Source: Buxus sempervirens
Lineage: Eukaryota > Streptophyta > Magnoliopsida > Buxales > Buxaceae
Length of the DNA stretch: 64,000 nucleotides
NCBI GenBank assembly: GCA_947561395.2
Contig: OX387187.1
Coordinates: 3,540,976-3,604,975 of the forward strand
Direction: 5' to 3'
The notes beneath the pieces were generated by a model. That model was not told where the DNA came from and searched no databases. It saw only the letters and a program-made list of their open reading frames with translations. Below are positions 4,366-45,980 of the stretch, piece after piece. Every line of letters starts with the position of its first letter. Positions within the stretch are counted from its first letter, which is position 1. The position numbers and the translations under genes are program-made.

Positions 4366-6503
4366 TCACTACAATGGTCTGGAATATAAGGGGGGCCGCT
4401 AATTCTGATTCTATAGACATGCTGAAGTATCATGTTACTACTAAGAAAATCCAGCTTCTTGCTGTTTTAGAACCTATGACAGGTATTGCGAAGTGTAAAA
4501 ATTTATCTAAGAAGATCAAAATGAGGAACTTTCAGCTTAATTCAGAGATGGACAGTAAAATCTGGATTTTTTGGTCTGATTTAATTAGCTTGGATTTCAT
4601 ATCTCTTAATACTCAATTTGTCACAGCTGTAGTCTCTTCTAATAATGCTGAGTTTAGCCCTTTTCTAATCACCTTTGTCTATGCTAAATGTGCTGTCCAA
4701 GAGCGAAGAATTTTGTGGGATGATTTACTGACTTTTTCTAGTTCAGTTACAATGCCATGGTTAATTGGAGGGGACTTTAATTCCATTCTTTCGATTGATG
4801 AGAAAATTGGGGGCAGATGTCCTGACAGCAGATCAATGCAGGATTTTCAAGACTTTACCCACAGGGTTGGTTTGAAGGATCTGGGTTTTATGGGAGAAAA
4901 GTTCACTTGGTGCAATGAGCAAGTTGGTCAGAGGAGGATATGGGCAAGACTTGACAGATTTTTCATCAATCACTTGGGTTTAAGCATTGCTTCTTCTTTA
5001 AGAATTTCCCATCTTCCAAGGGTTTGTTCGGATCACTCTCCTCTGTGTCTTTCTTTCATTCAAGATTCAAATAGAGCTGGTCCTTCTTCTTTTAAATTCC
5101 AGAAAATGTGGACTTCCCACCATTTGTTCTTGGATGTGGTGAGAAATTCCTGGAATAATCATATGGATGGTTCTCCTCTAATTGTACTCTCCAGGAAATT
5201 GAAGAATTTAAGATTTGTTCTTCGTAAGTGGAATTGGGAAGTTTTTGGGGATGTTCATAGAAGGATTGATCAATTATCTTCTAAAGTGGTGGAACTTGAA
5301 AATATTCTTTCTCATCAGTGGAGTCAGTCCATTTCTGATCAGATTCATCAATGCAAACGAGATCTCATTCTTAGCATCTCTCAACAGGAGACTTTATTCA
5401 GACAGCAATCTAGGGTGAAATGGCTTCAAGATGGTGATAAAAACACTAAATTTTTTCATGCTTCTTTGCAAATTCGTAAGCAAAAGAAATTATTGCAAGG
5501 TAGTGACTGGATATCTGATTCGGGTACTATTCAGGATGAGGCCATTTCTTACTTCTCTTCTTGTTTCTCTTCTGTTCCTCATTATTTCAATGAAAGTTTG
5601 CATGTGATTCCCTCTCTTTTGGAGAGCAGCCAAAATGATCTTCTTTCTTCGGTTCCTTCTTTTGATGAAGTCAAAAAGGCGGTTTTTGATCTTGATCCTG
5701 ATAGTGCCCCTGGTCCTGATGGTTTCACAGGTTGGTTTTTTCAGTACTGTTGGGAGGTTATTGCTTCTAATATTTATGCAGCTGTGCTTGATTTCTTCAA
5801 TGGTAGTCCTCTTCCAAAATCTTTTACTGCTTCTCTCATTGCTTTAATTCCCAAGGTGGATAAACCTAGAGCCTTTTCTGAATTTCGCCCAATAAGCCTC
5901 TGTAATTTTTCTTACAAAATTATTGCAAAGATCTTAGCTTCAAGGCTTTCTTTTATTCTTCCTCTTATTATAAGTAGATAGCAAAGTGCTTTTGTTAAAG
6001 GTAGAAATATATCTGAAAATATCTCTCTAGCTCATGAATTATGCCAAGATATTAACAGGAAGTGCTTGGGGAGCAATATTATGCTTAAGTTAGACATGGC
6101 TAAAGCATTCGATAGAATGGAATGGGATTTCATCATTGAGGTTTGCTAGAGGTTTGGGTTTTCTGATACTTGGTGTAATCTTATCAAAAGGTGTTTGGAA
6201 AACTGCTGGTTTAGTGTTCTCTTGAATGGTAAAGCTTGTGGGTTTTTCAAGTCCTCAAGGGGGCTTCGCCAAGGGGATCTGTAAAACCCCGAATTTTACT
6301 TAAATAATAAATTAAATTAGTAAATAATATTACTGAGGGTTATGATTGATGGGAATATTTTATTCTTGTAGGGGGTGATCAGTTTAGTGAAGATCCAGAA
6401 TTAGACGCAGATCTGACCGTCCGATCTTGAGATATCGAGGTACGTATTTTAATTGGGCAAGGTGTATGGGAGAGTTTGCATGGGAGATGCATGGGATCAG
6501 GGA

Positions 6504-6514
6504 GTATATATATG
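6504..6514 (+). promoter_or_regulatory. TATA-like box of LTR B1
   Basis: tatatatatg follows AT-rich U3 sequence and lies about 200 bp before the donor-like GT at 6706. The same spacing is seen in A1 (TATA at 20875, donor at 21083). The start of transcription is not visible from sequence. Confidence 0.45.
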
Positions 6515-8162
6515 TATTAAATAACCTAATCGTATTCTCGCTCGTATTATTCAGCCGCAAACGACGAGAGTTGAAACGACCGAGAAGAGAAGAAAGAGAA
6601 GGAAGGGGGAAGACCAAGGGAACTTGCTCAGAGCCTTGCCTTGCAACTGAGGAGAGGTTTGGGGGTTTGCTGTTCAGAAGAGAAGAGGAGAAACGTGTAT
6701 ACGAGGTAGGTGACACCGTTTTGGTTTTGAAATTGGATTTTTCCTTGGTTAATCGCAAATGCATGTTTCTATGATATGTAATGTTGTATTTAGTTAGCTA
6801 AGCATGTTAGAAATACACTAGAATGAGTTTAGACGAGAAAAATCGTGATTTAGAACTATTTCTGCTCGATTTCGCACGACCGCCGACCTCGACTGTGCTC
6901 GGCGCTCGTCGGCGATCTTCGGCGCTGGTTAAATAAAATTAGGGCGCCGTAGACCGCGAGAAGACGGACCGCGGGCGCTCGAAAATACACGACCGCTGAC
7001 CTGGGACCGCCAGGGCGATCCTGAGCGATCCTAGGCGCTCTCAACAGAATTTCCAATTTTTCATAATTTCGAACCTAATTCAATTCTAAACTATTTTTAG
7101 ACAATTTTAATGATTAATTAAGGTGCTTTAAGACCAAAATAAACTACCTAAACCCCTGTTTTACAGAAAAACAAATTAGGGAGATATTTAGGACAATAGT
7201 TGCCAAGTTTTGAAGGTAAATGAGAAACGTGATTTTGGAAAAGCCTAACTACCATTTGACTATCTAAATACCTCTAAATGACATTATAAATCAGAATACC
7301 TTCTAAAGAGAATACTGAATTCAGATGAACAAATATTGAAGTAAATGTACAGATATAACCATTATATGCCGCTAGGCACCAACCCTTATAGAATATGACA
7401 CTTTAGGGAAGTTTTGGAGTCTAGTGGGCATAGCTGGTTGTGGATCCATAGTCGTAGCTAGATAGCTGAGGGATATGTCATTTGGGTTGAGTTACTCCTA
7501 TATGCGACGCGCTTCCTTTGCAAGTTAGTTTGTCTGGGAAGGTCCTATGTCTGGAGGGACACCCCGGTGAGCCGCTGGTGATTCCCTGTACATGTGGATA
7601 AGCAACCACCTCCATGTATTGATTCTGGTGCTGCATGCTGGTGGTACATGCCAACTCTGATGGGTACGTGTACAATAAGTCGGTGACTACGGCTCTTGTC
7701 TAAGCTGCGCTGCATGGGGCTTGAGTATCATTAGTAGCATCGCTCCTAAGTCGCACGGTGGTATAGCAATTGGTTGAGAATCATCTCAAAAGGTTTATCT
7801 AACTTTGTGAGTCCTACAATGACCCTGAAATCATAAATCTTGTTATTATTGTGGTACATGCGGGAGGCATGTGTTTGGGATATTGGTTGGATGTGACTGT
7901 TTAGTACATCCTGGCAATGTATGAATTATGTTACTGATTTGACTATGGTATTTTCATATTAAACTTGCTGGAATTCATCTCTAGAACTGTTTAGTATATT
8001 GTTTTGTATTTACGAATGATACGAATGATTATACGAGCCTGATTAATCGATGTGACTTATTCGTGCATGAACTGCTACTTTCCGTATATTAACTGTTTAA
8101 TCATGCATGTGTTACCTACTGGGATATTCGTATCTCACCCTACTGTTATTCCATTTTTTCAG

Positions 8163-8251
8163 CTGATACGCGAGAGGGGGATCTCTTAGACTTCCAGGGA
8201 GAGATAGCTGAGTATTCTCCAGAGGATTACTATTATCCCGATCTTATCTGA
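8163..8251 (+). other. Candidate conserved terminal exon in LTR B1
   Basis: Directly after the CAG at 8160-8162, two bases (ct) are followed by 28 open codons and TGA 8249-8251. The peptide starts DTREGDLLDFQGE and ends SPEDYYYPDLI. The same phase, start and tail occur in B2 (41581) and B3 (13342, minus), with substitutions and a one-codon length difference. No start codon is seen in the upstream candidate exon, so how it would be translated is unknown. Confidence 0.45.
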
Positions 8252-10879
8252 GGTGGATTGATGTTAGAGACTTAGCATTTTTAATTGGTTCATTATCATT
8301 AATTGGATTTGATGTATGAGAGAGGCAAGAGAGAGTTAGTAACCAGTTCATTCTACCAGACTTTGATACTATTGATTGATGGTCAAGCTTCATGCTTGTT
8401 TGATGATTTTAATCTACACTTCCGCACATACTTGTTTCCGCAACTCTGATGGATTAATATATGGATTGGATTTACTTTCTTTGGTCTGGTATGTTATTGA
8501 TGTTGTAATTGATATGGGCCAGTAACACCTCGGATTTGGTTGTTGAACTAAATTCGGGTTGTTACAGTAGCGAACCGGGTTCGGGTCAGGTGCCGGTTTG
8601 GACTGACCCGGGTTCGGGGCGTTACAGGATCCCTTATCTCCTTTGTTATTTATCATTGCTGAAGAGGTTATGAGTAGGGGTCTGAATTTGATGCTTCAAG
8701 AGGGTTCTTTGGGGCACTATCATATTGGTAGAACTTCTATTAATGTTTCTCATCTGTTATTTGCGGATGATGTTCTTATTTTTACTAATGGAAGAAGGGC
8801 TTCATTGGTTAATCTGCTGAAGTTTCTAAGATCCTATGAAGATGCTTCTGGTCAGCTTATTAATGTTGAGAAAAGTTGTTTATTGGCTTCCTCCAAAATC
8901 TCTAATTCCAGATTAGACATGCTGTTAGCTATCTCAGGATTCAAAAAAGCTAATTTCCCAATTAAATACCTTGGAGTGCCTCTATTTCATGGAAGAGCTA
9001 ATTTGAATATGTTTGCTGATTTGTTAGAGAAAATTCAAAGAAAAATCAGTGGATGGAAATCGAAGATTCTTTCTCATGGAGGTAAAGTCATCCTTATTCA
9101 AAGTGTTCTTGCAAGCATTCCAATACATTCCCTGTCTGCCATTCCTGTTCCAAAAGCTGTATTACGTAGAATCGAAACTATCTTCTCCAATTTCTTTTGG
9201 GGGGAAAGTTCTGAGCATGGCCTAAAGAAGCACTGGTTGAGGTGGGATAAAATTACAAAGCCTAGAGTTGAGGGAGGCCTGGAAATAAAATCGGTTGTTG
9301 ATGTTATGCAGAGTCTTCAAATGAAAATGGCTTGGAAGGTTTTTCATGGGGAAAGCTTATGGTCTCAATGCATGAGTGCTAAATATTTTCCTTCTAGAGA
9401 TTTTCAGCATATTAAAGATAAATGTGGAAGTTCTAAGATCTGGAAATCCATTCTCAAAGTGAAGAATATAGCTATTGATAATACCGCCTGGTTCTTGGCG
9501 GAAGGAAACATTAGTTTTCTTTTTGATCAATGGTCTCATCTCGGGAAAATTTCAGATTATGTTATTCAAGACCCATCTCCATATGTTGATTTAAAAGTGG
9601 CTGATTTCATTGATGGAAATGGATCTTGGAAAACTCAAATTCTTGCTCAGTTCCTTCCTCAAAATATCGTCTCAGAAATTGCTGATATTCAGTATAGACC
9701 ATCCACTTTGAAAGACAGAGCTCTTTGGATGCCTTCTTCTTCAGGTTCTTTCTCCACATGTTCTGCTTGGAATTTAATTAGAACAAGAGGTACAACGTTT
9801 ATTTGGGGTAAGTGTTTGTGGCACAATTTCATTCCATCAAAGATTAGTGTTTTTATTTGGAAGCTTCTAAAGGGTGCTGTGTCAACTGATGATAGAATTC
9901 AAGGAAGTGGGGTTAGTATGTGCTCCCAATGCAATTGTTGTCTTCACAAAAGAAATGAGTCCGTTAATCATCTTTTTTCGTTTGGGGATATAGCTAAAAC
10001 AGTTTGGGATCACTTTTCTGGTTTATTTCAGTGCCACTACCATCCTCTTCATGATCTTAAAACCAGAATTTCTTTTTGGTTTTCTCATCCAAATGTGAAT
10101 GATCAATTGGGTATTCTCTTTAAAGTCATGCCTTTATTTATATGTTGGGAAATCTGGGCTGCTAGGTGTAAAAGAAGATTTGAAGATGTCCCCATGTCTG
10201 GTACTCATATCATATCAAAGATTCAAAAGTGGATTCAAGAGGTCTCATACTTTACCAAACCGACAATAGCTTGTGGAAATCAAAGAGCTGCAATATTAGA
10301 TCGAATAAATGCTTTTCATCCTCCATTTAAGTTCCTTATTCCTAAATTCATTCGGTGGAAAAGACAAAGAGTTTATCCTTATATTTTGAATGTTGATGGA
10401 GCTTCTAAAGGAAATCCTGGAATTAGTGGAGGAGGAGGAATTATTAGAAATTCTTCCGGGCATTTTGTTGCTGCCTTTTCGGCTTACTATGGTCATAATA
10501 CTAATACCTTGGCAGAACTCTTGGCTCTCAGAGATGGTCTTCGTCTGGCTGACAGGTATGGAATTCAAGAGCTTCATATTGAATCGGATTCAAAACTCAT
10601 TGTGGACACTTTTGTGGGATTGGTATCCAATCCTTGGAAATTTTTGCTTTGGTGGAGAGAAATAAAAGATAGATTGATAGCTTTCAATCGGGATATGTAC
10701 CATGTTTACAGGGAAGCCAATACAGTGGCAGATGGTTTGGCAAATGAGGGATGTATTCATTTCACGAACAGCTTTTATGATTCTATTTCTAGCTTGTCTC
10801 AGAATGTTAGAACTTGCTTGTTCCATGATAGCACTGGATTATTTTCTATTAGATATTAGCTTTAGTCTTTTGTATTTGA

Positions 10880-11153: not shown

Positions 11154-12882
11154 GGTTTATTTGTATAAAAGAAATCTAACAAGTCACGTGGACTAAAATG
11201 TTAATTACAAAATAGTGAGTGACTAAACACTCCTCTCAGTTAGAAGGTTTACAAGTCCAAAATAAATAACTACCATATACAAAACAAAGTAAACATCCTA
11301 AGTAGGCCGGTAATAGTCTTCCTCTCTATACCCTGGTGCCTTATCCTTTCCTTTATCCCCAATCCGGTCCTTCACGCCAGATGTCGACAGCTTTGAAAAT
11401 AATATGGTCAAACAACTGTGAGATGAATGTCTCAGTAAGCAACACATGCATGCTCGGTGAAAACACAGTTTATGCAGATATTATTCAGTAAACCATAGCA
11501 TGCGAGTAGTTGAAATAATTGTAAAAGTGGCAACAAATTGTGCAAGATAAATAGTGCAATTCAGTGCATAGGTGTACAATATAATCCATTTAAATAAACA
11601 TGCGTTCATGTATTCTTATCACTTGTTAATTAGGTTGTTTTGTATATTATGCACATGACCTCATCTAGCTTCATCGATTCCACATGGTGGCTAGGCATCC
11701 ATGCCGATTACCCTTGACGTGGGTATCCATACGCTGATTACCCTTGACGTACAGGCATCTATTGCCGATTCCCCAAAGCAAATGGGCATCGGCCACCGAT
11801 GTTGCTAGTGCCGGGATGATATAAACAATGCAATAATAGTAACAACACTTGGTCATGGCATTTATATACAAACAATCCTATTTAAGTTTTTGGATCCATA
11901 TCTTAAGGGTTCATCATGAAAATATTCAATTCAACACTTTCACATCAAGTGTAACATGCACTCATGCATGCAAAAAATTCTCAAGGATAGCCCATGGCCT
12001 TACCCGAGTCATTCTTGAGCCAAGCCCTCTTTCATTTCTCATGGAATCTGGGACACTACCCTCCATATAATACATCAATAACTGGGCTAATGCCCTTCAT
12101 ATCATGATAACAACATGTATGGCATGCTAGACAAATGGGACAATGCCCAAATATAAATTGCATGCTTATAAGGAAGATCAATAACAACGAAATACCTTTT
12201 TATCAATAATTCCTACATTTCATGGCTTACTTGGGCAATCTAGGCCCCAACTCTTTGGATATAGGTGCAACTTGAATTTGGCTTTGGTTTTCTACTTGCA
12301 AGGGTCATTTGGAAGGTGTTCCAAGTGGTAGAATCAAATTATCCCACTTCTATAAAAATCTGGAACGTAAACTCTCTATAAATCCTATTTTAGGGAAAAC
12401 GTACACAAAATCTTTGTTATTTGGAATTTTGAGATAATTCCAGTTGGTACACTTCGTAGACACCTAAATCCTACTTGTACATTGGTTGGATTCCAATAAA
12501 AACAATCCGTAGTTTAATTTGGGCTTAAAACCAAAATTTTGGAAAAACTGTTCAGGTCGCTAGAAGGGGCGCTCGAGCGGTGCTTCGGGCGCTCGGCTTA
12601 CCTGGGAAAATAGCTCTCGGGTTTGGAATTTCTAAAAAGCATAGGCGGGGCACTCGAATTCGGGCTCTAGTGGCAACAAGTGGCCTCGCCTGCTAACTAA
12701 TTCCTATGTGGACGCCTGAGAGGTCGCTCGAGCGGCGGTTTAGGTACCCTCGCAATTTCTCAGGTTCACGAAAATCCGATTTTTCCTAACTTCTAGGATT
12801 TTTCAAATCTCACTATTTTCTATGGTTTGTGGTCTCTAAATTGTCTCTAGCATGTGTGGTTACCTATTTCTTACAAAACCCC
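11154..12882 (-). mobile_element. LTR family C, middle piece
   Basis: Continuation of the minus-strand LTR C after the LINE. Read on the minus strand it ends with the open tail YREEDYYRPT before TAG 11300-11298. It also carries a family-specific repeat block (11690-11800; units with gccgattacccttgacgt) and a GC-rich island at 12550-12775. No ORF of note. It is cut at 12882 by solo LTR B3. Confidence 0.75.
11298..11395 (-). other. Candidate conserved terminal exon in LTR C
   Basis: On the minus strand an open frame of about 30 codons runs to TAG 11300-11298 and ends GYREEDYYRPT. The tail matches A2 (YREEDYYYHP) and A3 (YREEDYYYLP). The acceptor is degenerate here (TTTTCAAAG rather than TTTTCAG). 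Confidence 0.4.
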
Positions 12883-15270
12883 TTTAACGCCCCGAACCCA
12901 GGTCAATGCAAAACCAACATCCGACCCGAACCCGATTCACTACTGTAACAACCCAAATTCAGTTCATCAACCAAATCCAAGATGTTACTGGCCCATATCA
13001 AATAAACATCAAGAATATACCAGACTAAGAAATAAATGATCCATTCATTAATTAACTATCAGAGTGCGGAACATGTATGTACGGAAGTATAGTCTAATAT
13101 CCTCAAGAAACTAAGGTATAATTAACCATCCAAAATCAATATTAAAGTCTGGTAGAATAAAAGGGTCACTAATCTCTCATCTCTCTAATACATCAAACCA
13201 AATGAATAATAACCTGATCAAAATAACTAAATCTATATCAATCCACAACCTTAGACAATATCCGGATAATAGTACTTCTCCGGCGAATAATTAGCTAGCT
13301 CTCCCTGGAAATAACTACTATGATCCCCCTCTCGTGTATCAAATGAAAAATGAAATAAATGTAGGGTGAGATACGAATATCTCAATAGGTAACACATGCA
13401 TGTTTAAACAGTTCATGCATGATTCAGCAATCTCGACTAACCAGGCTCGTATAACCATTCGTATCGATCATGAATACAAAACAGTATAATAAACAGTTCT
13501 AAATATGAATTTCAGCATGTTAAATTAGAAGAATCCAATATCAGAAATCAATAGCATAATCCATAAGTTACTAGGATGCGCTAAATAGTCACATCCAACC
13601 AATATACCAATTACATGCCTCCAGCATGTATGCAACAGTAACATCATGTGTTTGAGATTTTAGTGTCATTGTAGGACTCACAAAGATAGATAAACCTTTT
13701 GAGATGACTCTCGACCAATCGCTATACCACCGTGCAGCTTAGGAGCAATGCTACTAATGATACTCAAGTCCCATGCAACGCAGCTTAGACAAGAGCCGCA
13801 GTTATTGACTTATTGCACACGTACCCATCAGAGTTGGCATGTACCACCAGCATGTAGCACCAGAATCAATACATGGAGATGGTCGCTTATCCACATGTAC
13901 AGGGAATCACCAGCGGCTCACCGTGGTGTCCCTCCAGACATAGGACCTTCCCAAACAAACCAACTTGCAAAGGAAGTGCACTCCCACAAGGGAGAAACTC
14001 AACCCAAATGAAATATCCCTTAGCTATCTAGCCACAACTATGGATCCATAACCAGCTATGCCCACTAGACTCCAAATATCCCTAAAGTCTAATAATTCTA
14101 TAAGGGTTGGTGCCTAGCGGCATATAAAGAGTAAATCTGGCATTTCCTTTAATATTCGGGTTAACTGAGTTGAACTTATGATCTAAATTCTTTTTATGTA
14201 TTTATCTGGTTTATAGTGTAATTTAGAGATGTTCTGGTAATCAAATAATAGGTCAAATCTTCCAAATACTAGATTTCACAGTTTCATACAAAGTTTGGCA
14301 ACTAGTGTCATAAATATCTCCCTAATTTATTTTTCTGTAAAACAGGGAATTTGATAAATTATTTTGGTCTTAAAACATCTTAATTAATGATTAAAATTGA
14401 CTAAAAATAGTTTGGAATTGAATCAGGGTTTGAAAATACAAAATTCTGCAATTTCTACACAGAGCACTTAGGATCGCCCCAGCGATCTAAGGTAGGCGGT
14501 AGTTCATTTTAGGTCGCCGAAGATAAGTCATCTAGCAGTCTCGGGCGGTCTCAAAATTTGTACTAGCGCCTAAGAGCGCTGAGGATCGCCGAGCACAATA
14601 AGGTTGGCGGTCACTCAAAAACGATCAGAAACAGTTTAAAAATGTGATTTTTCACATCCAAGATTATTCTAACATACATATAACATTGTTATCTAACTAA
14701 ATACATGATTATATCATATAAAAACATGCTTTGGAGATTAAACACACGTAAATCCAAAAACGAACGATCAAACGGTGTCACCTACCTTGTTCGCGTTGTT
14801 TTTCCTTATCCTCTTGAACAACGACGACCACTATCACCCAGCAATGCTCTGGACGATGAAGAGCACAAGACACGAGTCCTCTCTTCCTCCTCCTTATTCT
14901 TCTCTTCCGGTCGCACAGTCGCTCTCGGTCGTTTCTGTCTTGCGGCTATCGAATACGAAGAGTATGAGCAAATACAATTAGGTATTCCCCAAACGTATTC
15001 TTCTAGGGTATTTAAGTTGTATATATACTCTTTGATCCCACGCAACCCACGTACAAAACTAAACGTACATTGCCCAATCAGAATACATCTAAATTAGCGT
15101 ATCAATCATACCTCATATCTCACGATCAGACGGTCGGATCTACGCCCAACTCTGGATCTCCACTATTTATATTATCCCCTACATTAATAAAATATTTCCA
15201 TCAATTAAAATTCTCAAAGATATTATTTATTAATTTATTATATTATTTAAGGAAAATTCGGGGTTTTACA
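12883..15270 (-). mobile_element. Solo LTR B3 (Tekay/Del-like), 2388 bp
   Basis: The plus-strand left end reads TTTAACGCCCCGAACCC (family TG mutated to TT) and the right end TTCGGGGTTTTACA. The perfect TSD acccc lies at 12878-12882 and 15271-15275. It is inserted in LTR C. On the minus strand it has the B layout: donor-like AAG|GTAGGT near 14790, GC-rich island 14455-14620, the ctttgtgagtcctacaatg block near 13680, and the terminal exon. The acceptor AG is mutated (CAT at 13345-13343). Confidence 0.92.
13251..13342 (-). other. Candidate conserved terminal exon in LTR B3
   Basis: Two bases plus 29 open codons end at TAA 13253-13251. The peptide begins DTREGDHSSYFQGEL and ends PEKYYYPDIV. Relative to B1 it has one extra codon, silent changes and a different stop codon at the same place. 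Confidence 0.45.
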
Positions 15271-22524: not shown

Positions 22525-22601
22525 ATATTCGTGGTGAGGCGCCTACTGGGGTAGATCCGACTGATACATATAGAAAGGAAGACTATGAGTATCATCCATA
22601 G
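22525..22601 (+). other. Candidate conserved terminal exon in LTR A1
   Basis: After CAG at 22522-22524, two bases (at) are followed by 24 open codons and TAG 22599-22601. The peptide begins IRGEAPTGVDPTDTY and ends RKEDYEYHP. A2 and A3 encode the same frame with mostly conservative changes. Confidence 0.5.
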
Positions 22602-25174: not shown

Positions 25175-27523
25175 TGTAAAATCCCAGATTTTAGTGATAA
25201 ATAAAACTAATTATTAAATCGACTTATTGGGTTAATAATATGCAGGAGATGAGATATTGGTTCAAACCAGAGGAGTTCAAGGTGAGTTTATTTGATGGGT
25301 TTAGAAGTCGTGATTTTTAAAGTTGTTTAGATTAAATCCGAAATATGTTTAAAGGTGTTTTGGTAATGGTAGAAGCATAGATGAGTGGTTACAGAGGTCA
25401 AAAGTAAGGTCGGTCATGGAGTTCTGAGATTAACAGAGAGTCGTGTGTCAGAGGTAGGGTTCGCCGAGCTCGCGCCAACCACGCGCGAGGTATTTCCTTG
25501 TATCGCTGAACTCGCGCTTGTCTCGCGCCTAGTAGCTTTATTCCGCGCGAAGTGTGGTATTGGTATACGCTGAGTCCACGCTGACCTCGCGCCAAGCGCC
25601 AGATGTCAGCGCACCCAATAGAATTTTCCGAAAGTTGGTTTTGGCCAATCCAAGCCAATTTTTGATACTTTGAGACCTCAAACTCATACCCAAAGACTAT
25701 ATTAGGATATTAGAAATATTATATCTGTTCAAAACAATTGGGGGGGTATTGAATCAAATTCTGGGTATGTCTATAACTTGTTGAAGGGTGAATTTAAGGA
25801 ATCTGGGTAGGTTATTGCTATTCATGATCCTATAAGTAAATGAGCCAATTTGGTTATGTATTTTATTTGTTTTCTGATTTTGAATTTGTATAATCTGGTT
25901 TTGTTCGATATCAAAGGACTGAATAGTATTGAAAATGTCTTGTGTGAGTAAGAGGATTTTACCGCAATGAGTTTTGTTGTTGTGAGGTTGGGATACCTAC
26001 TGAATTTATATGAATTGATGTTCTGGTTGGAACAATTTGTGATGAGTGTATTGGGATACACAGGATGGTAATCAGTGTGGGTTATTGTTTTGCAATTACG
26101 GAGTTTTGTGAACTTGTTAATTTGGTTTTGGGTTTAGCTTCCTTTGGATCCATGTTAAGCTTAGTAATGTGATGGTATTTGTTTGTTGGTGTAATTGCAT
26201 GGCCTTGTGTGTTGCCACGACCGGTGTAGAGTAGCCAGATACCCTGAGTAGGCCTGGTTGTCAGTGCCGATACTCGGAGTAGGCCGGCATTGGATGACGA
26301 TACCTTGAGTAGGCCGGCATTGGATGATGATACCTTGAGTAGGCCGTCATTTCAGAGTTTCCGATACCCTGAGTAGGCCGGAACTGTGTACATGGAGGTG
26401 TGGAGTGTCTCCTTGGCATGTAAATTAACCAATTTAAGCAATATGCATGACATTGACCATTCGTTGATTTATCGGTGCTATGGTTGTTTATTTGTTGGTT
26501 ATTTATCGAAGCATGTTTATAACTGTGGATAACTATTTTTGCATGCATATGTTACTCGCTAAGATATTCGTATCTCATTCCTTCGTTATTGTTTGTTTTC
26601 AGATATTCATGGTGAGGCGCCTTCTGGGGTAGATCCAACTGACACATATAGAGAGGAAGACTATTACTATCATCCATAGACTAGTAGGTTTATTATAAAT
26701 TGAAACTTGATACAATTGTTTTTGGGAAATGTAATAAGGTAGTTGTTTGGAATCATTTGATTTTAGTTGAAGATTATATTAGATTTCTTAGATAAGAATT
26801 TTAATTGTGCACTCTGATATGGTATTAATTGCGTGATTATCCAGCGATCACATTTATTTGGATCCTTACCTAACCCTCTATGAGACATGTTATATCTTTA
26901 ATGAACAACACGGATCCGGGGCGTTACAGGTGAACAATTGGATTTGATCTGTTTTTATTATATTGTTGTTTGTATTGTATTGTGGTTAATCTGATTAGTC
27001 GTTACATATTTCCTTGTTGTCAACTATTTGCATGACTACTTACTGAGATGTTGTTTTTCACATTATTATTTATCGGTTTTGTTTTCATATATTCCTAGTA
27101 AGGACGTTGCTGGGGTAGAGACTCCAGGGGATTAATGTGATTACCAGGAAGAAGATTATTTCATTCCTGTGTAGGTTTAGGAGGATATGGATTTGACTTA
27201 GTTTTGTTTAGGGATTGACATTAGTTATTTTATTTGAGGATTTTGATGTTATTAAAGGGATTATTTGGAAATTTTATTTACACAACTTTACTGGATGTCG
27301 CTTATTTTATTTAGTTGAACCCTTTCCAGACTTTATGAATATACTAATATTGGATTATTATTGGTGGTTTAATTCCATGATTCTTGAAGAATTGTCATTT
27401 ATTTCCGCAGTCTGATATATTTAATGGAATCGTTCAAGTCTGGATTAGTTGTTTTGGGCCATTATACTAACGAACCAGATTTGGGTTTATATTTTTAAAT
27501 AAACCTGGATCCGGGGCATTACA
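25175..27523 (+). mobile_element. Composite solo LTR A2, 2349 bp
   Basis: Starts TGTAAAATCCCAGATTTT and ends GGATCCGGGGCATTACA, with perfect TSD acttc (25170-25174 and 27524-27528). It contains a second LTR end GGATCCGGGGCGTTACA at 26928, after which sequence resembling another LTR tail follows (26929-27523). ggtga occurs at 25281-25285 and 26929-26933, so 25286-26928 may be a 5'-truncated A-type LTR inside a divergent outer LTR. GC island 25440-25620; gtaggcc block 26225-26385. Confidence 0.82.
26603..26679 (+). other. Candidate conserved terminal exon in LTR A2 (inner)
   Basis: After TTTTCAG ending at 26602, two bases and 24 open codons run to TAG 26677-26679. The peptide begins IHGEAPSGVDPTDTY and ends REEDYYYHP. 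The outer LTR tail has a related frame ending QEEDYFIPV at TAG 27174, with one internal stop and a mutated acceptor. Confidence 0.48.
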
Positions 27524-39682: not shown

Positions 39683-42043
39683 TGTAAGACCCCGAATTTT
39701 TCTAAATATAAAAAATAATAATTAATATTCCTGGAGATTTCTATTGATGGAATTAATTAATAATTGTAGGTGATATCGTTATTAGAGAAGATCAAGAGTT
39801 TGGCAAAGATCAGGCCGTTCGATCGTGAGATATCGAGGTAAGATTAATATTTTAATACTAATGTGTTTTGATTGGGCGGATGCATCGTGAATGATACATG
39901 TGTGTGGCATGGGATTGTATATATATATATATATATATAGACAAGTGTAGAGTATGCCCTAACATACGGTGTGCATACTCTTTCGTATTCTGTTGGTATT
40001 AGACAGCCGCAAGAACAAAACGCACGACCGAGAGCGACCGAACGACTGAAGAAGAAGAAGAAGGAAGGAGAGAGGAACTGAGTCTCTTGTTGTTCCAAGG
40101 TCTTTCTGCAACCGAAAGGGAGTGTGATTCGTTTGCATGATTTGTTAATGTATATGTACGTAAATAGTTCAATTATAAGTAAATAATTGTGTTAGAACTG
40201 GCTAGAATAGGAAAATTTGGATTTTCAATTGCAGATTGCCGTTTTTCTATGGGCGCTAACGTCAAGTCCCTGAGTGCCCGTAAGCGTCCGTTGGCACCCG
40301 TACAAAATCTCTAGCCACCAACCACTGCTTAGAGGAGGAAGGTGAGCGTTTAAAAACTGAAATAGCACTAACCTTGGACACCTAAGCGTCCCTGAGCGCC
40401 TATTGAAATTATAAACCAATTGAAATATAACTGGTGCTAATCCAAATTCAATTCTAAATAATTTTTAATAAATTTTATCAATTAAATTAGATGTTTTCAG
40501 TCATAATAAATTACCAAATACCTTGTTTTACAGAAAAATAATTAGGGAGTTATTTTAGAGTATTAGATGCCTAATTTTGAATATAGTAAGAAATTCTAAG
40601 TTTTTATACAAGTTAAACTTTATAAATGGGGAGAATTAACCAAGAGATATTAAATTATATATTATAAACCAGATTTCTACAGATAGAACTATATGATCAA
40701 AATTTCAACCTATATACCCCGAATGTTGATAAAATTATAGAATTGACCTTTATATGCCGCTAGGCACTATTGTTTACATAAAGATGAGTCCTTAGGAATT
40801 TTTGGTGTCTAGTGGGCATAGCTGAGTATGGATCCATAGACTAAGCTAGATAGCTAAGGGATATTTCATTTGGGTTGAGTTAATCCCTTGTGCAAGCGCG
40901 CTTCCTTTGCAAGTTGGTTTGTGCTAGAGGGTTTCGTGTCTGTAGGGTCATTTCGAGCCTCACTAGTGATTCCTATACATTTGGATCAGCGGCCATCTCC
41001 ATGTATTGATTTCGCTGCTGCATGCTAGTGGTTAATGCCAACTCTATTGAGTCGTGTGCAATAAGTCGATGACTATGGCTCTTATCTAAGGAGATGTCTC
41101 GGGTTTGAGTATCATTAGTAGCATTGCCCATAAGCCACACAATGGTATATCATTTGGTCGAGAGTCTTCTCAAAAAGTTTATCTTTCTTTGTGAGTCCTA
41201 CAATGACATTGAAATCATGTATACTTGTTACTATATCTTGGCGCATGTGAGATGCATACTTGTGATACCTTATGGTCAGATGTGACTGTTTAGTACATCC
41301 CAATTTTATTTAGACATGGAGTTGTCTACATTGGTTGGATTATGTTGTAAATTCTGTATCTTTGTTCTTACTATAAATGCTACTATTCTCTGATACTTAG
41401 AAATGATTTAATTACTGATTTGTATTTCAAGTTCACTATGAATGTTTAATCGAGCCTACTTATCCATGTTAGCTTAATTGTGCATGAATGTTTATTTTAT
41501 ATATAAACTGGTTATAGCATGCATGTGTTACCTACTGAGATATTCGTATCTCACCCTACCTTCTTATCGGATTTTTTCAGTTGATACGTGAGAGGGAGAT
41601 CATAGTGGTGATTTCCAGGGTGATCTTGCAGACTTTTTGCCAGAGGCGTACTATTATCCAGACTTAAGCTGAGGTTGAGGAGAGATGATTATATGAGACT
41701 AATTGACTGTTTATTTTGATTATTTGGTTTTGATGTATCTGAGAGATTGAGAGTTTTGGTACCCATTGATACCAGAGTTGATTTATTTCGATTGAATGGT
41801 TATATTTATTTTATGTTTATGATGATGTTAGGTTACACTTCCGCACAATTAAGTTTCCGTACTCTGATAGTTAATGATGAATGGTTTATTTAAAATTTCA
41901 GTCTGGTTATTGTTGATGATTATATTTATATGGGCCTAGTAGCACCTTGGATTCGGTTGTTGAGCTAGATTCGGGTTGTTACAGTAGCGAACCGAATTCG
42001 GGTCAGGTGCCAGTTTGCATTGACCCGGGTTTGGGGCGTTACA
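39683..42043 (+). mobile_element. Solo LTR B2 (Tekay/Del-like), 2361 bp
   Basis: Starts TGTAAGACCCCGAATTTTT and ends GGGTTTGGGGCGTTACA, with perfect TSD ccttc (39678-39682 and 42044-42048). It is inserted in the 3' LTR. It has a TA dinucleotide run at the TATA position (39917-39939), a weak GC island 40245-40400, the conserved tcctacaatg block near 41197, acceptor TTTTTTCAG ending at 41580, and the terminal exon. The donor-like site is degraded. Confidence 0.93.
41581..41672 (+). other. Candidate conserved terminal exon in LTR B2, one stop
   Basis: Two bases plus 29 codons run to TGA 41670-41672. The third codon is TGA where B1 and B3 have CGA, as expected from CpG decay. The remainder reads EGDHSGDFQGDLADF and ends PEAYYYPDLS. 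Confidence 0.42.
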
Positions 42044-43613: not shown

Positions 43614-45980
43614 TGTAACGCCCCGGATCCGTGTTGTTCAATAAAGATATAACACGTCTCACGGAGGTTAGGTAAGGATCGGTAATGGTTTATGATCGCT
43701 GGATAATCATCTAACTATAACCTGTCAGAGTGCACAATTTCATTAATCCAAAATGTAACATTTAGAACTTAACTAGAAATCATATGGTTCAACCCCAAAA
43801 GACTTTAATACACCTCAACATTCAAATTTCTCAAATTTGAAACAAGATAACCTACAAGTCTAAGGAAGGTAATAGTAATCTTCCTCCCTATAAGCCTCAG
43901 ACGGATCTACCCCAGTAGTCGCCTCACCACGAGTATCTGAAAACAAAACAAAAACAACAGAGTGAGATACGAATATCTCAGCGAGTAGTACATGCATGCA
44001 GAAATAGTTAATCACAGTTCAAAATTATGCATCGATAAACATTCCGTACGATTAAACAACTAACATCAATTTCAACTTCAAACCAAAACCCATTTCATCA
44101 GTCAAATCACATCTCAGTTAAGCACGGCAACACATCGATTGGTAAATGTCATGACTATCGTTTAGTTGATAAATTAAACATGCCAAGTAGACACTCCACA
44201 CCTCCATGTACACAGTTCCAGCCTACTCAGGGTTTCGGAAACTCTGAAATGACGGCCTACTCAGGGTTTCGTCATCCAATGCAGGCCTACTCCCTGGGTT
44301 TCTGCATTGACAACCAGGCCTACTCAGGGTTTCTGGCTGCTCTACACCGGTCGTGGCAACACACAAGGCCATGCAATTTCAACAACCAACAATAACATTA
44401 CATTACTAAGCTTAAGCATCTGGATCCAGGAAAAGCTAAACCAAACAGTAAATCATCGTATAATCGCAATTCCGACATCAAAATAAAGTCATTCATTCCA
44501 CATCGTATATAACTCATTACGGTTCATCACCTGTCCCTCTGGACCAAGCAGTATCTCAAATACTTTCAGTATTTTCTCATTTCCGCAACACATGCCATTT
44601 GAATACAAAACACAGTTATTCATGCTAAGAAAAACTTTACAATACATTCAGAATTTTCCAAACAAGTGAAACCAGAAGTTAATAATTTCTCAATCAAAAC
44701 AGTGTATAAATTCAAGGGAAAAACTAATTAGGAACTTCCATTGTTTTGGTATCCAGCACAATACATACAAATAACCTAAACTCAACCTTAGATGCCTTTA
44801 AGAATTTGCCACTAGAATTTCTTCTAGGAATTTAATCGGTAATACAGGTTCCAAGGTTCCCAAACAAGTGATTGGTTAAGTGGTATAAACCTCAAGACAT
44901 CAAAATCCCCCTTGGTTCAGTCAAGAATCAATTTCGGTAAGTTAAATTGGGTATGCGCTCACTTCCTGAAGTGAGCGCCAGTCGGCGGATAGGAATCAGG
45001 CCACATTTGGACTATGCGCTCACTCGACACTAAATGAGCACGAGCTGAGCGGGAAATGGGCGCGAGATGGGCGCCGGCTTCGTGCGAGATTTGCGCATAC
45101 TATTTAGTGAGCACGAGCTGAGCGCCAAGTGGGCGCCAGCTCGGCGGATAGTGTGATTTTAATGGGTGCCTACTTCCTAAGTGAGCGCGAGTGGGCGCCA
45201 GGTCGGCGGATACCCACTGCGATTTTCAACACTCTGTTATTTCGAGATCTCTATCTCTGGCCGATCTGTTTCGGTCTGTAATTGTTCCAATACACTCCCA
45301 ATGTTCCCAGAATACTTCCCAACCAGTTTTGGATTTAATCTAAACACATTTAATTTCCAGTTATAATTTTACCCTCATGCTCGGACTCATGATGTTCCAG
45401 AAAACCCAGAAAACTCACAATACAACCATGCAATCAAAATACATCACGAATAAACTAAAACCTCAGTTGTAAATCAGTGCTACTCACTCTTATACGCTTA
45501 TCCCAGAACAACAGCTTATTCCACAACCACGGCCGATCACGACTCCGGCTGTGCGCGTGGATGCAAAGGTAGCCGAACGAATCCTCTGCTCGCGAGAGAA
45601 ATAACCCACCGAACTCCGACTCCAATAATCTCCTAGTAGCTCTTGCGATTCTTGTTCTTCACAGGCAGAACCCTAATCGCCACACCAGCCGCAAATCGCC
45701 AAGTCGCCCAGTTCTCCAGATAACGAGAGTAACGAAAGTATTGCCAAAAGTATGATACGAGTATTCTAAAAACCCAAAGACCTAACTTTCCCTTTTGGTA
45801 TATTTACCTCATACGCTACATATGCATTGCCGCTCGACAACCCTTTTAAAGTCCTTGCTACTGTGCATGCTCGCCCACTGAAACCCTACATATTCCGGCC
45901 ACTTAAGTTAACAAGCGCCCAAGCTATATTTTAATAATAAATAAATAAATAAAAAGTCTACCAAAAATCAGGGTCTTACA
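43614..45980 (-). mobile_element. Solo LTR A3 (Tekay/Del-like), 2367 bp
   Basis: The plus-strand left end is TGTAACGCCCCGGATCCG and the right end CAGGGTCTTACA. The perfect TSD catga lies at 43609-43613 and 45981-45985. It is inserted in gag between the codons for DEKIM and VQFF. On the minus strand: donor-like AAGA|GTGAGTAG at 45487, GC island 45225-44950, gtaggcc-type repeats 44335-44220, acceptor TTTTCAG ending at 43937, terminal exon. Confidence 0.94.
43860..43936 (-). other. Candidate conserved terminal exon in LTR A3
   Basis: After the acceptor, two bases and 24 open codons run to TAG 43862-43860. The peptide begins TRGEATTGVDPSEAY and ends REEDYYYLP. Phase and length match A1 and A2. 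Confidence 0.5.

Follow-up and report, generated by a model that had tools for sequence, protein, structure and literature searches.

The long terminal repeats (LTRs) of retrotransposons are usually annotated as non-coding, and an open reading frame that recurs at the same place in several of them raises the question of what it encodes and to what it is joined. Such a frame lies at positions 8163..8251 of a 64,000-nucleotide stretch of the Buxus sempervirens genome (contig OX387187.1, forward strand, positions 3,540,976 to 3,604,975; this whole stretch is the window). A preliminary description, made from the letters of the window, had taken the frame for a coding exon that directly follows an intron end in LTRs of several families. 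The present analysis supports that claim and adds further families. A conserved coding exon in the LTR is judged likely. The stretch is best read, with a probability of roughly 0.55, as the terminal protein-coding exon of a plant Ty3/gypsy element, which would be spliced on as the C-terminal exon of Gag, with or without Gag-Pol.

Six LTRs of the window, B1 to B3 and A1 to A3 (the lineage letters are our own and were assigned by LTR similarity), have an open frame after the polypyrimidine tract near their 3' end. The layout is an acceptor, two bases, 28 to 29 codons in B1 to B3 or 24 in A1 to A3, and a stop, and the phase is the same in all six. LTR B1 (6280..8626, plus strand, ~2.35 kb) belongs to a Ty3/gypsy element whose chromodomain match is weak, and complete elements with B1-type LTRs are found elsewhere in the genome. 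Its exon, on the plus strand, consists of two bases, 28 codons and the stop TGA and would encode ADTREGDLLDFQGEIAEYSPEDYYYPDLI if the split codon begins with G; the conserved box GGATATTCGTATCTCA, the pyrimidine tract and the acceptor TTTTTTCAG precede it (8121..8162, plus strand). The exons of B2 (41581..41672, plus strand) and B3 (13251..13342, minus strand) have 29 codons, one whole codon more than B1. The 24-codon exons lie at 22525..22601 (A1, plus strand), 26603..26679 (A2, plus strand) and 43860..43936 (A3, minus strand). These frames, their tails, the one-codon difference and the origin of the internal stop of B2 in a CGA to TGA change agree with the preliminary description. The two additional tails that it mentioned were located at 11330 on the minus strand, in an LTR of lineage C, and at 27148, in the outer LTR around A2, which represents lineage D. 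The C and D LTRs are the older ones of the window, and both have the exon tail (C, 11298..11392, minus strand, 30 codons; D, 27089..27174, plus strand, 27 codons with one internal stop). The claim that CAG stands directly before the exon holds for most copies but fails in the window for B3. The acceptor AG is gone in three window copies, B3 and D reading CAT and C reading CAA; over all copies examined, window included, CAG is present in 11/13 A, 17/23 B, 15/19 C and 18/21 D copies.

The host genome (676.5 Mb) holds many copies of LTRs of the window types, and in the genome copies the exon frame extends to seven lineages, A, B, C, D, F, H and I, with 23 to 30 codons. The phase of lineage C, read from its relatives, is also two bases and then codons. 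Families retrieved through their reverse transcriptase (RT) have exons in the same phase, namely DPSTSGAKADKGKEKALGYREEDFFRPARSP in F and the near-identical G, DPPGEPRIEGDPDYRPEDYYYYPQ in H and DKSAEQPQAEVGRINEQDDDYNPEDYYYPG in I. The chance that all seven lineage representatives are open in the exon frame is 1.6e-5, a value based on base composition only and on treating the lineages as independent, which they are not fully. Exon length equals that of the reference in 13/13 A, 18/23 B, 18/19 C and 20/21 D copies, unlike the pyrimidine tract just upstream, which varies in length by single bases. The position of the stop is constant within lineages, and the length differences between lineages are whole codons. 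Frame-breaking length changes were found in 6 of 76 copies (four B, one C and one D), and some others have internal stops, as in decayed copies. Neither of the two exon peptides tried had a Pfam match at E up to 0.1.

Variants in the reference-length copies were divided into those shared by at least two copies, taken mostly as evolution of active elements, and private ones, taken mostly as changes after insertion. Among shared variants 41 of 94 are synonymous against 28% expected (p 0.0007), a pattern different from the dN/dS near 1 without 3-bp indel bias that the preliminary description had named as contradicting it. Private variants are approximately neutral (30/100 synonymous, p 0.33). Variants shared by copies are thus under moderate purifying selection and private ones are not. 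The synonymous excess, moderate within lineages, is clearer between them. For the core Y/E/D/Y/Y codons, 13 hand-picked sequences were compared, the seven lineage representatives entering the pairwise count: differences number 0 at position 1, 16 at position 2 (all Y/F) and 52 at position 3, or 44 synonymous and 16 nonsynonymous, the counts being pairwise and so non-independent. Resampling of lineage A'' carried no information, its best 40 copies being 99-100% identical. A conserved DNA or RNA element, such as a promoter, packaging or processing signal, could also be open by accident. The neighbouring box GATATTCGTATCTCA is conserved as DNA, and A and C are almost the same over parts of the exon, as such an element would have it, but the codon-position pattern and the near-neutral private variants make this explanation very improbable.

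The elements that carry these LTRs are Ty3/gypsy retrotransposons with a single gag-pol frame. Complete B elements exist; their LTRs are ~2.35 kb long, and where the elements stand in tandem arrays the period is 7146. Pieces of the B locus L012 match the Pfam domains Retrotrans_gag, RVP_2, RVT_1 and an SH3-like integrase domain above their cut-offs; the integrase core rve reaches 27.5 bits, below its cut-off of 32.6, but stands in the expected place. The order is gag, protease, RT and integrase, the integrase lying downstream of RT, and a Chromo match (E 0.00098, 19.4 bits) falls under the curated 25.1. In an excerpt of PMC3605345, most Bongo LTRs are described as long, as are the LTRs here. 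Several tandem arrays of the form LTR-internal-LTR-internal consist of nearly identical B elements (L009 to L014, G000:C6:11569908-11591546) and probably arose by recombination between LTRs. Other B-family arrays have a period of ~6207-6230 instead of 7146 (G000:C4:17092283-17104788, locus L155, and, by spacing, C1:46.53M and C6:10.76M). L155, the only one of these that was read, is an amplified gag-deleted derivative, in which gag residues ~60-372 (the capsid and nucleocapsid region) are deleted in frame by 939 bases with 4-base microhomology; a processed copy was rejected as its origin, since the junction shows this microhomology and is not GT-AG. From domain order and LTR length, and partly from what we take to be the features of that clade, the elements are probably Tekay/Del-like chromoviruses. 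In DNA, the gag-pol regions of A and B share only 64-75% identity, a distance at which most synonymous sites can be expected to be saturated.

The phase of the exon requires a donor that lies after the first base of a codon. At the gag/protease boundary the sequence GGA G/GT A (slashes mark predicted splice positions) occurs in A, A', A'', B, E, F, G, H, I and 5/7 C copies, in phase with the exon. GGA GGT is identical there in 9/9 family representatives, three of which are A subfamilies; one of the seven C copies was entered in this comparison, and G (near F) and D were left out. Among 47 comparable columns of the protease region, defined as degenerate residues conserved in at least 8 of the 9 families, 44 vary; the fully codon-identical ones are two neighbouring glycines and one isoleucine, and the glycine pair at the boundary provides the only adjacent columns that are both at 100%. 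The codon after GGA GGT starts with A in 9/9 although the residue is I, M or T. This conserved sequence makes the gag/protease AG/GTA the best candidate donor. Two other sites within pol were rejected: a protease/RT donor, CCTG/GTACGGC, is identical in A', A'' and B but reads GGC, GGA or AGT in H, I and some C copies, and no RNase H donor is among the phase-1 sites common to A', A'' and B, a comparison in which piece borders could hide a site.

A further donor, CAA G/GT AAA, stands in frame at the pol end after an open last stretch in 10/10 B tails and in 4/4 tails of E, F, G and H (F and G nearly alike). If it alone were used, the exon would be the C-terminal exon of Gag-Pol only: splicing from CAAG/GTAAA would skip the polypurine tract and the greater part of the 3' LTR, the integrase/chromodomain tail would be extended, and there would be no Gag-only message. 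Donor, open last stretch and phase in all 14 of these tails agree with such an arrangement, as do the unspliced stops of the B, E, F, G and H families, which vary in position, with one position common to E and H. Lineage A, however, keeps the exon frame despite a stop, TGA or TAA, as the last codon ahead of the donor position, seen in 20/20 tails and in L053, and despite loss of the GT in two tails (L055, L064). The explanation by Gag-Pol alone is therefore considered unlikely, and the pol tail, which fits B (L012), is ruled out for A as a general donor by the stop in its 20 tails. A donor at the chromodomain, TGGGAAG/GTGAGG, was set aside because it is present in some A tails only. An inverted repeat, AAATTTCGAGGACGAAATTT (AAATTTCG..CGAAATTT), lies near the pol end just upstream of the polypurine tract (L012:9149-9168 and homologues); it recurs with few mismatches in 20 A and 10 B tails, these tails having been located by that motif at no more than 3 mismatches.

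The preliminary description had suggested an upstream donor inside the LTR, AG/GTAAGT. As a coding partner it is not supported: in a scan for ATG-led frames of at least 4 codons and donors scoring at least 2.5, none joined an in-phase donor in 10/12 LTR stretches, and the matches in the remaining two (L054, L056) are unlike each other. An LTR exon 1 or a U3 segment was likewise rejected as coding partner, the frames being closed or not common to the LTRs. Because the LTRs share no start codon with an in-phase donor, the upstream exon is probably in gag-pol. The same scan bears on a small stand-alone LTR protein, which would begin at ATGs in the conserved GCATGCATG, 60-80 bases upstream, and join a hydrophobic leader to the acidic tail. 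An unspliced frame does run from such an ATG through the exon in A1, A3 and 10/18 fetched C copies, but single-base variation in the pyrimidine tract changes this frame from family to family and from one sister copy to the next, and no in-phase chain of ATG and donor is common to the LTRs; of all the explanations weighed here this one is the least credible. A-type LTRs also contain ~30-base tandem repeats (TGAGTTGATGTTCTGGTTGGAACACTTGTG) and CCCTGAGTAGGCC repeats (L054:1580-1790, L055:1650-1790).

The LTR does contain a candidate 5' splice site, ACGAG/GTAGGTGACACCG (6706..6718 in B1, plus strand), a possible donor for a leader intron ending at the same acceptor as the exon. A similar site with like downstream bases occurs in B3 and in A-type LTRs and was not found in B2 by the pattern used. 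At most one ATG lies in the 190 bases before it and the frames are inconsistent, so the site fits an untranslated leader. The whole exon might be an untranslated 5' leader exon: transcripts would start after the TATA box of the 5' LTR, the LTR donor would be spliced to the acceptor, and the exon would lie between cap and gag, its frame being a by-product of start-codon avoidance or of descent. Besides the shared donor, the exon has no ATG in 6/7 representatives, the gag ATG of B and A is preceded, at a distance of no more than 7 bases, by an acceptor-like TTTGCAG or TTTACAG, and AG/GTT or AG/GTG follows soon after the exon stop in A, B and D. Third-position bias, fixed length, a stop at a shared position and the same phase across seven lineages are nevertheless unexpected of non-coding sequence, no phase is consistently open upstream of the LTR donor, and the AG/GT after the stop is missing in C, F, H and I. 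A purely untranslated exon is improbable on this evidence, and a non-coding leader role may exist beside the coding one. No B-family LTR retrocopy without the leader intron was found among the 40 that were scored out of 2076 candidates, as would be the case if copying used unspliced RNA only, or if there is no splicing. Upstream of the TATA box, a block of ~68 bases between TGTAG and AG/GTA, ending in CCGTCYGATCKTGAGATATCGAG, is conserved among B1, B2 and B3 (6369-6439 of the window, in the U3 part of B1); given its stops, this suggests conservation at the DNA level.

The preferred reading, a terminal exon of Gag, would work as follows. RNA that runs from gag-pol into the 3' LTR would be spliced inefficiently from the gag/protease donor AG/GTA, after the first base of the glycine codon, to the TTTTCAG acceptor of the LTR. 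Pol would thereby be removed. In the resulting Gag-only mRNA the LTR would supply the stop codon and the final 24-31 residues, while unspliced RNA would give Gag-Pol. In B, E, F and H, though not in A, the second in-phase donor at the pol end (CAAG/GTAAA) could put the LTR tail on Gag-Pol as well. The acceptor is also present in the 5' LTR, where it may serve to excise a leader intron, a second use that an ATG-free exon fits. The presumed purpose is to obtain more Gag than Pol from one frame and a special C-terminus for Gag. A fuller version, advanced tentatively, would make the LTR exon a shared alternative C-terminus of Gag and, outside A, of Gag-Pol, with the same acceptor trimming the 5' leader, so that one LTR-duplicated acceptor would set the Gag:Pol ratio and provide a shared acidic, tyrosine-rich tail.

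Several observations weigh against this reading. Lineage E keeps acceptor and phase but stops after 12 codons, which argues against a uniform need for the tail. Five of the 23 B copies are off-length, one of them (B1) by one whole codon, and the rarity of ATG in the exon is what a leader exon would show. The contrast between shared and private variants is modest (odds 1.8, one-sided Fisher p 0.034), in keeping with moderate selection within lineages. At the gag/protease site the GT is missing in 2/7 C copies (L171 and the C12 copy), and beyond GTA the donor sequence is a weak one (score 2.2 on the matrix used). The comparison family L176 (one locus, 313 LTR bases) has GAA GGT ACC there, that is, also AG/GTA; the site may therefore predate the LTR exon or be more widespread than it.

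Should the reading be correct, the LTRs of a gypsy group that is present here in many copies contain coding sequence for a portion of Gag (or Gag-Pol), and splicing may solve the problem of making Gag in excess of Pol for this group. Solo LTRs would also carry coding exons with acceptors open to capture by neighbouring genes. The predicted splice junctions are exact to the base.

Coding sequence within an LTR is familiar from retroviral accessory genes, whose frames overlap the 3' LTR. These overlap U3, whereas the Buxus frame is predicted to be a separate terminal exon near the LTR 3' end. CRR is a chromovirus of the CRM clade, and since it has spliced transcripts, splicing in chromoviruses is not new. 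Literature sources are cited here from excerpts, to which the statements about them apply. Ogre and CRR resemble the Buxus elements as plant Ty3/gypsy elements with spliced transcripts (PMC6317226, PMC3735527), but their downstream exon is not said there to be in the LTR. Plant LTR elements are described in a review as generally intron-free, with Ogre and EVADE as exceptions; copia, Ogre, Bagy2 and CRR are named elsewhere as further spliced elements (PMC3735527). In sunflower no Tekay elements are among the highly expressed ones (PMC7730604), and no report of splicing of Tekay/Del elements or of an LTR coding exon was found in searches of an open-access library, most subscription papers being outside its scope.

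Further close parallels come from the spliced messages of other elements. BARE1 of barley (Ty1/copia) has a CAG/GTAT donor 2 nt beyond gag that yields a Gag-only RNA (PMC3735527). As predicted here, alternative splicing just after gag converts one gag-pol frame into a Gag-only message, but in BARE1 104 nt are removed, with a frameshift and a stop 3 residues on, whereas in Buxus the tail would come from a conserved exon of the 3' LTR; the BARE1 splicing was shown by RNA and that of the Buxus elements is predicted from sequence. In copia of Drosophila ~2.9 kb of pol is spliced out to give the Gag message; copia belongs to the copia superfamily, and the passage describing it does not mention an LTR coding exon (PMC3735527). 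EVADE/EVD of Arabidopsis (Ty1/copia) likewise obtains excess Gag from its shGAG message by alternative splicing after gag, although there the protease domain is removed, a frameshift leads to an early stop, and no LTR coding exon is mentioned (PMC12786077, PMC7730604). In Cer1 of C. elegans, itself a Ty3/gypsy element, the spliced CERV mRNA links exons in the gag frame to a 3' exon whose acceptor is TTTCAG (PMC10309623); in the Buxus elements the corresponding 3' exon would be a tail of 24-31 residues that lies inside the LTR.
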